NCBI RefSeq assembly: GCF_037031285.1 | Contig: NZ_JAYEZO010000001.1 | Coordinates: 62,001 to 126,000, forward strand | DNA from: Halobellus sp. LT62 | Lineage (GTDB): Archaea > Halobacteriota > Halobacteria > Halobacteriales > Haloferacaceae | Length of the DNA stretch: 64,000 nt | Direction of reading: 5' to 3' | In this document: positions 54,187-54,646 of the stretch, piece by piece | Position numbering within the stretch: position 1 is the first letter of the stretch | How the letters are laid out: each line of letters begins with the position of its first letter | Position numbers and translations under genes: made by a program | Notes under the pieces: model-generated | What the model saw: only the letters and a program-made list of their open reading frames with translations | Databases searched by the model: none | What the model was told of the DNA's origin: nothing

Positions 54187-54573
54187 CTGTTCGTGGCATC
54201 GGCTCCCGACCCAACCACGAGGCGCGTGCTGGCGGGGGCTCCGTCGCCCGCCGCACGCACGCGAGGGGCGACGAGCGAGCGTCGCGAGCGAGGAGTCGGC
54301 TGGGGAGGACGCGGCGGTGCGGCGCTGTCGGGTGGGATCGCAAGGGGCCGGGCGCTTGCAGGGGTCATCTCGGCCCTAGAATACTCCACGTTGAGTCGTT
54401 CAACGGCGACACAGCCGCGCGGCTCCTCACTTTGTTCGGAGACGGCTTACGAGTCGGACGCGATTTGAACGCACGGTCGGACGTGCTCGCTTCGCTGCGC
54501 CCGACCTCCCTGCGATTCAAACCCCGCCGGTTGCGATACTCGCCGCTCGCGAATGTGCTCGCGGCGAGAAGAC
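54187..54573. other. 387-base intergenic region with tRNA 3'-end relic
   Basis: It follows the flavoprotein and precedes tRNA-Lys (minus). It holds a GC-rich inverted repeat (54224-54236 / 54247-54258, GCGTGC.GGCGGG arms). At 54455-54525 it holds a partial copy of the tRNA-Lys 3' end with an inverted T-arm copy. No protein frame with convincing character; no promoter identified. Confidence 0.55.
54455..54472 (-). repeat. Partial copy of tRNA-Lys 3' end
   Basis: 18 bases (CGGACGCGATTTGAACGC on plus) identical to tRNA-Lys T-arm/acceptor positions 54578-54595, 123 bases away, downstream of the tRNA gene. Similarity continues imperfectly for some bases on each side. It could be an old attachment-site-like duplication. 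Confidence 0.7.
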
Positions 54574-54646
54574 GGGCCGGACGCGATTTGAACGCGCGAC
54601 CGTCTGGTTAAAAGCCAGACGCTCTGCCGGACTGAGCTACCGGCCC
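54574..54646 (-). tRNA. trnK: tRNA-Lys (anticodon TTT)
   Basis: 73-nt cloverleaf on the minus strand. The acceptor GGGCCGG pairs with CCGGCCC, the D-arm is normal (GCTCAGTCCGGCAGAGC), the anticodon stem GTCTGG/CCAGAC encloses the loop CTTTTAA, and the T-arm ends GCGCGTTCAAATCGCG. CCA is not encoded, no intron. Upstream on the minus strand CGCTTATC (54673-54680) is a likely TATA box. The matching class I LysRS gene is at about 10-11.6 kb. Confidence 0.97.

Follow-up and report, generated by a model that had tools for sequence, protein, structure and literature searches.

The window, that is the whole stretch of 64,000 nucleotides of Halobellus sp. LT62 analysed here, encodes a tRNA-Lys (TTT) on the minus strand (54573..54646) that is recovered by both ARAGORN and Rfam (RF00005). 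Read in gene direction, the mature 3' end of the tRNA is abutted by a spacer S of 47 bases that contains a hairpin of its own (54526..54572, minus strand; defined by sequence and fold). The spacer is followed on the same strand by an inverted T-arm, GGGGTTTGAA (54516..54525), which is the 5' arm of the outer stem of a hairpin P, by a P core of 46 bases belonging to type 1 (CAGGGAGG...GACCGTGCG; 54470..54515), and by a forward copy of tRNA positions 54-73, TTCAAATCGCGTCCGACTCG, that is identical at 18 of 20 bases (54450..54469). A preliminary description of this DNA had pointed to a displaced partial copy of the tRNA-Lys 3' end with an inverted partner. Both are real, because tRNA-Lys, spacer, GGGGTTTGAA, core and the 18/20 copy are laid out in this order. 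The 18-mer in question occurs exactly twice in the window, once within the gene (54578-54595) and once 3' of it in gene direction (54455-54472), where shuffled sequences average 0.41 matches with up to three mismatches, and the inverted partner at 54516-54525 is able to pair with the displaced piece. In tRNA numbering the identity is unbroken from 51 to 68, with mismatches at 69 and 71. Further inverted-repeat arms (54475-54483 and 54498-54506) lie between the inverted T-arm and the copy, and the stretch 54450-54572 folds well both as RNA (z -3.29; 1 of 200 shuffles as good) and as DNA (z -2.46; 3 of 200). The tRNA gene is adjoined by a DUF7119 protein gene (54767-55570) with a ParB-like HTH match below threshold, and similar sequence seems, by eye, to lie beside tRNA-Lys(TTT) elsewhere too (L021, L030-L032). 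The intergenic stretch 54223-54350 recurs by eye at two congener loci (L146, L152) and resembles a genus-level intergenic repeat. The window also contains an archaeal RNase P RNA gene (41321-41764; RF00373, 158 bits).

A second host gene in the window is a tRNA-Gly (CCC) on the minus strand (59792..59862; ARAGORN and Rfam RF00005). It is followed on the same strand by a spacer S, recognised from the sequence (59752..59791), an inverted T-arm, GGGAATTGAA, that fits the unusual T-arm of this tRNA, TTCAATTCCC (59742..59751), a type-1 core of hairpin P (59702..59741) and a forward copy of tRNA-Gly positions 54-73 with 20 of 20 identical bases (59682..59701). Directly behind it lies a unit of other build, Q (59617..59681, minus strand), composed of a hairpin identified by eye and a copy of the last 14 tRNA-Gly bases. 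Judged by eye, members of the Q class have a GTCCC...GGGAC-type hairpin beside a copy that starts only at about position 60, and they have no inverted T-arm; Q-like copies are also seen in the same genome behind Arg-TCT, Ala-GGC and Arg-GCG (L034, L046, L074).

Arrangements of the tRNA-Lys kind are widespread. A census was taken in three genomes from three families, two of them single-contig genomes added to that of strain LT62, and covered the tRNAs with a recognisable T-loop. At least one unit scored behind 19 of 43 tRNA genes in the LT62 genome and behind 26 of 43 and 22 of 57 genes in the other two, while upstream controls gave 0, 0 and 2 hits. For LT62, 43 distinct ARAGORN genes were used next to 44 Rfam tRNA matches; for the others Rfam gives 44 and 55 tRNAs. 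Among the tRNAs without units in all three genomes are Ala-TGC, Asn, Leu-CAG and Ser-GCT. In LT62 and likewise in G038, a single Asp unit was scored behind two adjacent tRNA-Asp genes, and two G038 hits are seemingly false (one in L377 and the second of L333), so that 76 of the 80 census units were used for the analysis of loops and core halves. The region L377 (G038:C1:2635124-2637763) is a dense cluster of tRNAs, several of them low-scoring, perhaps a provirus, and holds one doubtful unit only. When the inverted arm is ignored and forward copies alone are counted, the three genomes contain 86 copies downstream, at 62 of 143 tRNA genes, compared to 3 upstream; in a reading of the LT62 flanks, 1 of 17 copies was the tandem tRNA-Asp gene itself.

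The tRNA-Lys site is a member of a genome-wide and haloarchaea-wide family. The pattern GGATTTGAA-N18..48-GTTCAAATCC, which represents the P hairpin with the common T-arm, is present in 299 of 391 genomes of the class and in 77 of 86 genera, with no match for a reversed control pattern; all such counts are lower bounds, because only units with the common T-arm or core are detectable. When one locus each from 30 matching genomes was inspected, the copy agreed with the upstream tRNA at 19-20 of 20 bases in 21 (counted by hand), and four had no upstream tRNA inside the stretch examined. A phylum-wide draw of 294 genomes gave 42 with the pattern, all among the 53 class members, and none among the 241 genomes of the phylum outside the class (tallied by hand). 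Applied to 84,980 species genomes, a more stringent type-1 pattern returned 77 stretches that are haloarchaeal by title except for two contigs, both from an unspecified 'Euryarchaeota archaeon' MAG. Viral carriage of units was considered and rejected: 27 stretches of viral contigs match the pattern, three of them have a predicted tRNA with the pattern inside that tRNA, and none of the 27 is a tRNA-anchored unit in the stretches examined.

A unit consists of a spacer S, a hairpin P and a copy of host tRNA positions 57-73; the outer stem of P is formed by the host T-loop and 3' T-stem strand together with their reverse complement, and the inner core of P is common to units behind other tRNAs. 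The named genomes contain 80 type-1 units, 68 of which have a same-strand tRNA within 600 bases upstream, representing 24 tRNA species, and 12 of which have no tRNA in the stretch examined. The copy is identical to the host tRNA at 20 of 20 bases in 49 of the 68 units, with a mean agreement of 19.4 compared to 14.0 against other tRNAs. The last ten bases of the copy agree at nine or more positions with the host in 57 of 68 cases and with other tRNAs in 70 of 4382. The inverted arm behaves similarly: its best 11-base match reaches at least 9 for 58 of the 86 copies, against 154 of 2048 for the T-arms of other tRNAs. For the 54 copies at tRNAs with an unusual T-arm, the inverted arm reaches at least 9 in 36 and beats every other arm in 30. 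No inverted arm reaching 9/11 was found for 28 of the 86 copies. The cross-control of the census itself is not clean, because T-arms of different tRNAs resemble each other, and foreign T-arms also matched there (87/621, 127/618 and 123/825); the match to the host is better tested by comparing the named units, the 86 copies and the boundaries of the likeness.

We mapped these boundaries at informative positions of 76 units, where only positions from 64 on are free of bias because similarity over 54-63 had served to find the units. The forward copy is host-like from 57 (16/17) through 73 (27/34) and has no clear excess at 49-52 (13/42, 21/48, 13/24 and 5/12), whereas the inverted arm is host-like from 57 to 64 (36/48) and weaker at 65 (19/39) and 66 (7/29), where the T-stem ends; positions farther out vary between 9/53 and 19/37. 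Clean one-base insertions in copies of the LT62 genome all fall within the T-loop or beside it: four lie at 57/58, two at 58/59, and a tRNA-Thr copy carries an additional one at 60/61. An automatic tally of 16 insertions at 57/58 was inflated by badly aligned copies of the Q type.

The cores do not follow the tRNA in this way. Among the 21 units of the LT62 genome, 15 have a core with a likeness of 75% or more to the core of some other unit, which in every case stands behind a different tRNA, and the acceptor 12-mers of the tRNAs concerned agree at just 5.9 of 12 positions. In the two further genomes, like cores were found for 16 of 31 and for 8 of 24 units, behind different tRNAs in 12 and 6 cases, respectively. 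In the tRNA-Glu array of LT62, three units with three different cores stand side by side. Covariation was analysed in 14 hand-chosen type-1 units with varied T-arms, on a hand-drawn structure. Pairing is retained in 90.7% of the cells, with 20 two-sided changes compared to 5.6 in shuffles and a score of 0.299 compared to 0.149 that collapses on sliding; the number of pair types is not raised (12 versus 11.5), and one of the drawn pairs fails in 5 of the 14 units. Two pairs inside the core, which had no part in the choice of sequences, have two-sided changes in 5 and 3 of the 14 units, and neither is broken. Exchange of core halves, scored with RNA energies, has a modest effect: the own halves pair better on average, and in no more than 11 of the 76 units is the own half the best of all partners.

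GNA triloops are found in 48 of the 76 cores compared to 10.6 in shuffles, often inside tandem G-A pairs (25 of 76 versus 0.3), while GNRA motifs of RNA type occur in 19 cores and are not enriched (27.1 in shuffles). The oligonucleotide d(GCGAAGC) reportedly forms a DNA mini-hairpin of extraordinary stability (Hirao et al., 1994, as cited in the accessible part of PMC11292364; also the accessible part of PMC10527192). Loops that are rich in GNA and not in GNRA might thus lean weakly towards a DNA structure, an argument that takes its biophysics second-hand from these excerpts (PMC10527192, PMC11292364), and the structural conservation fits RNA equally. The loop motif as a genome-wide repeat was rejected, as its 18 matches in the LT62 genome, at least 6 of them in tRNA arrays by position, compare to 22 for the reversed pattern; its single occurrence in the window is near chance.

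Comparison with congeners reveals turnover of units. Five loci were located via their neighbouring genes and 330 bases were read behind each tRNA, which gives examples and no census; the wanted tRNA was returned in 27 of 62 stretches (Lys 9/14, Gly 3/12, Ser 3/17, Leu 6/9, Glu 6/10). From none to three units occur at one locus. Behind tRNA-Gly, P and Q are present in LT62, Q alone in G002 and no unit in G003; at the tRNA-Gly locus L159 of a congener, Q is the sole unit seen. Behind tRNA-Lys we found zero (L150, L151) to two units, behind tRNA-Leu one or two, including a recent, exact tandem duplicate in L187, and behind tRNA-Glu three in LT62, one in L202 and none in L195-L198. In three of the latter (L195, L196, L198) a DNA-methylase-like gene, recognised by eye, lies close behind tRNA-Glu(TTC). 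Decayed remnants of units were seen by eye in L153 and L060. In the three-genome census, likeness between the spacer S and the sequence after the copy exceeds the 95% level of the control for 13 of the 86 copies, where about 4 are expected, and 4 of the 86 spacer pairs are identical over 45 bases. In L147-L152 the T-arm of tRNA-Lys(TTT) is GGGGG-TTCAAGT-CCCTC and not GCGCG-TTCAAAT-CGCGT, a change that involves both strands of the stem, and downstream copies follow it where they exist. Where tRNA-Lys carries the T-arm TTCAAGTCCC, the downstream copies carry TTCAAGTCCC too (L147-L149, L152). This switch in part of the genus reads as co-conversion or gene replacement. Gain and loss of units are indistinguishable in the congeners. 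Runs of N are found inside the arrays of two draft genomes (L171, L189), and unit counts in drafts may be too low because the repeats seem to break assemblies.

The preliminary description had linked the displaced piece to past integration. We disfavour this, since the same build occurs class-wide behind many tRNAs, and where both were seen the hairpin lies too close to the gene for an element to fit between them (at 7-345 bases in the census and 32-232 bases in the named genomes); the alternative given there, a structural feature of tRNA 3' flanks that is kept in relatives, comes nearer. In the 27 of 62 congener stretches of 330 bases, units or other sequence follow the tRNA. The block of identity ends at the tRNA 3' end, position 73 being host-like in 27 of 34 informative units, and the sequence after the copy is not more like that after the tRNA than the control in 73 of 86 cases. 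An apparent integrated element does exist in the LT62 genome (L078, C2:577900-586600), where it covers about 7.3 kb after tRNA-Val(CAC). It carries a tyrosine integrase gene, seemingly broken into two frames, with Phage_int_SAM_1 above the cut-off and Phage_integrase (3.5e-05) below it, and is closed by an att block in which, by eye, about 14 bases of the acceptor end recur. Just past the element comes a hairpin unit whose copy is Val-like, so that the element stands between tRNA and unit. An ordinary att site thus looks different from a unit, because this element left another, shorter mark. That the units are relics of past integration of ordinary elements would agree with a copy that stops at the tRNA 3' end like an att block, with the presence of such an integrase-bearing element at tRNA-Val, and with the 12 of 80 named units that have no tRNA in the stretch examined and that elements could have moved. 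We regard this origin as very improbable, given that in each genome 19 to 26 tRNA genes are followed by the same build, and given an inverted arm that tracks the host tRNA, the shorter and different att block (by eye) at tRNA-Val and gaps too small for any element. Displaced tRNA 3' ends in haloarchaea are hence not always integration sites, which calls for some caution.

To our knowledge, no known mechanism explains shared cores with tRNA-specific flanks. The reading that we prefer, with a probability of roughly 0.45, is that of an RtT-like, tRNA-anchored hairpin repeat of DNA-level origin, in which hairpins would insert at the T-loop and acquire a copy of the 3' half of the tRNA found there. 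The core appears to end in invariant T-loop letters, GGTTC on the right and a near-complement on the left; GTTC, mostly as GGTTC, is common to tRNA genes at the T-loop, so that priming or recombination by a core would be feasible in any of them. Once the core has annealed or recombined at this point, synthesis would extend it along the 3' half of that tRNA gene on one side and by about 10-12 bases on the other, in a kind of snap-back copying. The resulting direct repeats of the 3' half could then let arrays grow and shrink. Such copying would explain the match to the host, the T-loop joint with its stray bases, the shared cores and the breakpoint seen in E. coli. We infer this mechanism, and both an RNA role and a recombinase still compete with it. 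The likeness of spacer and post-copy sequence in only 13 of 86 cases would speak against the proposed origin, as would the 28 of 86 copies without an inverted arm at 9/11, and the exchange of core halves (best partner in 11 of 76) and the unraised number of pair types count against it as well. A more far-reaching version, in which the unit is a new mobile DNA hairpin that enters tRNA genes at the T-loop and rewrites both flanks, with E. coli tyrT as the bacterial case, is put forward only tentatively. If true, the tRNA would stay whole while the hairpin becomes matched to it, and tRNA genes would anchor cassette-like arrays of hairpins.

A role of the hairpins as structured 3' trailer or in insulation of the tRNA transcript may exist under the DNA-level origin as a secondary, unproven function, but it could also be their primary one. 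The units would then be functional RNA, transcribed behind the tRNA as a structured 3' trailer or switch, with an antisense arm that could pair with the T-arm of the tRNA itself or with the downstream copy, a role that was suggested for rtT. The class-wide occurrence, the compensatory changes in the stems, the RNA fold with its z of -3.29 and the design shared with RtT RNA, an Rfam family, are in line with this. We nevertheless consider it doubtful, though possible, as copies decay (18/20 at tRNA-Lys; the remnants in L153 and L060, by eye), many tRNA genes and some congener loci have no units, and the loops are of GNA and not GNRA type. Recombinase cassettes are unlikely in our opinion. A tyrosine recombinase would act in the T-loop, P would be an attC-like folded site, small circles would serve as intermediates and the tRNA as anchor, which suits the T-loop joint and the palindromic site, the arrays and the differing cores side by side at tRNA-Glu, and the T stem-loop is known as an integrase target region of tRNA genes, at least from the accessible part of PMC8371274. 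Against this stand the copies in the arrays read, which fit their host, the need for integration to rewrite the own 3' half of each tRNA, and the viral-contig matches, 0 of 27 of which are tRNA-anchored in the stretches examined. Tandem duplication or replication slippage around the T-arm, after which quasi-palindrome correction would perfect the inverted arm and short-homology conversion would spread the cores, is distinctly unlikely: the T-arm is itself an inverted repeat and exact duplicates occur (L187; 4 of 86 spacer pairs), yet different cores are adjacent in arrays such as that of tRNA-Glu, spacers mostly differ, and cores are common to different tRNAs. In its simple form, 3' half plus native flank, duplication seemed to fit the tRNA-Ser locus (L171) and was rejected as a general rule, with just 13 of 86 cases above control. 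A reverse-transcription stop at a modified T-loop base was considered and dropped: as far as we know, E. coli does not have that modification and haloarchaea do not have a class-wide reverse transcriptase. The units may be selected, tolerated or selfish. Since they are class-wide, are found behind many tRNA species and turn over between species, their origin and role are open to comparative study.

Several known systems share some of these features. In integrons, palindromic attC sites are arrayed beside an anchor site. The units described here are likewise palindromic and arrayed beside an anchor, the tRNA, but their outer arms are copied from it. The att sites of tyrosine integrases, as described in the excerpted text of PMC8371274, also comprise a block from the T-loop region to the tRNA 3' end; the haloarchaeal units differ from that description in their inverted T-arm, their shared hairpin cores, their tandem arrays and the absence of an element between the copies where both are seen. 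The MITE, PATE and SMR elements of Haloquadratum are, according to the accessible passages of PMC3119063, similarly short, with palindromic or inverted repeats, mostly non-coding and present at many sites. In the same passages the terminal repeats of MITEs and SMRs are of fixed sequence, the targets of SMRs are for the most part other mobile elements, and none of the three is described as bearing copies of tRNA ends (PMC3119063). Fixed terminal inverted repeats are not a feature of our units, whose outer arms vary with the host tRNA. Among the matches listed for open-licence PMC full text, judged by title and the start of the abstract, we found no description of the archaeal units.

The closest counterpart is found in E. 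coli, where tyrT/tyrV reportedly contain tandem repeats and encode RtT RNA, work attributed to Bosl and Kersten in 1991. Our scan of tyrV/tyrT recovered four partial copies of the tRNA end, each starting exactly at T-loop position 58, with an inverted arm (10/12) upstream of three of them. The RtT model (Rfam RF00391) has four matches in E. coli, and the alignment displayed pairs GGGGAAGGAU with AUCCUUCCCC. Among 14 control genomes E. coli alone matches this model, and none of 60 haloarchaeal genomes does, although the filters may lose weak matches; in the stretch of the window that was scanned, tRNA is all that is recovered. The haloarchaeal units do have an outer stem of RtT type, a copy of the tRNA 3' end with its inverse located behind that tRNA. 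They are not members of RtT, as RF00391 is without match in the 60 genomes, though their architecture is the same. The accessible part of a report from 2010 (PMC2965389) mentions that rtT resembles interspersed BIME repeats and may act in the stringent response. In E. coli and haloarchaea alike, the units lie behind a tRNA and combine partial copies of its 3' end, which begin in the T-loop, with an inverted arm upstream. The copies start at 57 in haloarchaea, with an inverted arm to 64/65, and at 58 in E. coli, and the haloarchaeal units occur behind many tRNA species per genome, throughout a whole archaeal class and with other cores. The puzzling tyrT/RtT locus of E. coli thus gains a class-wide counterpart that shares its design and accompanies no fewer than 24 tRNA species.
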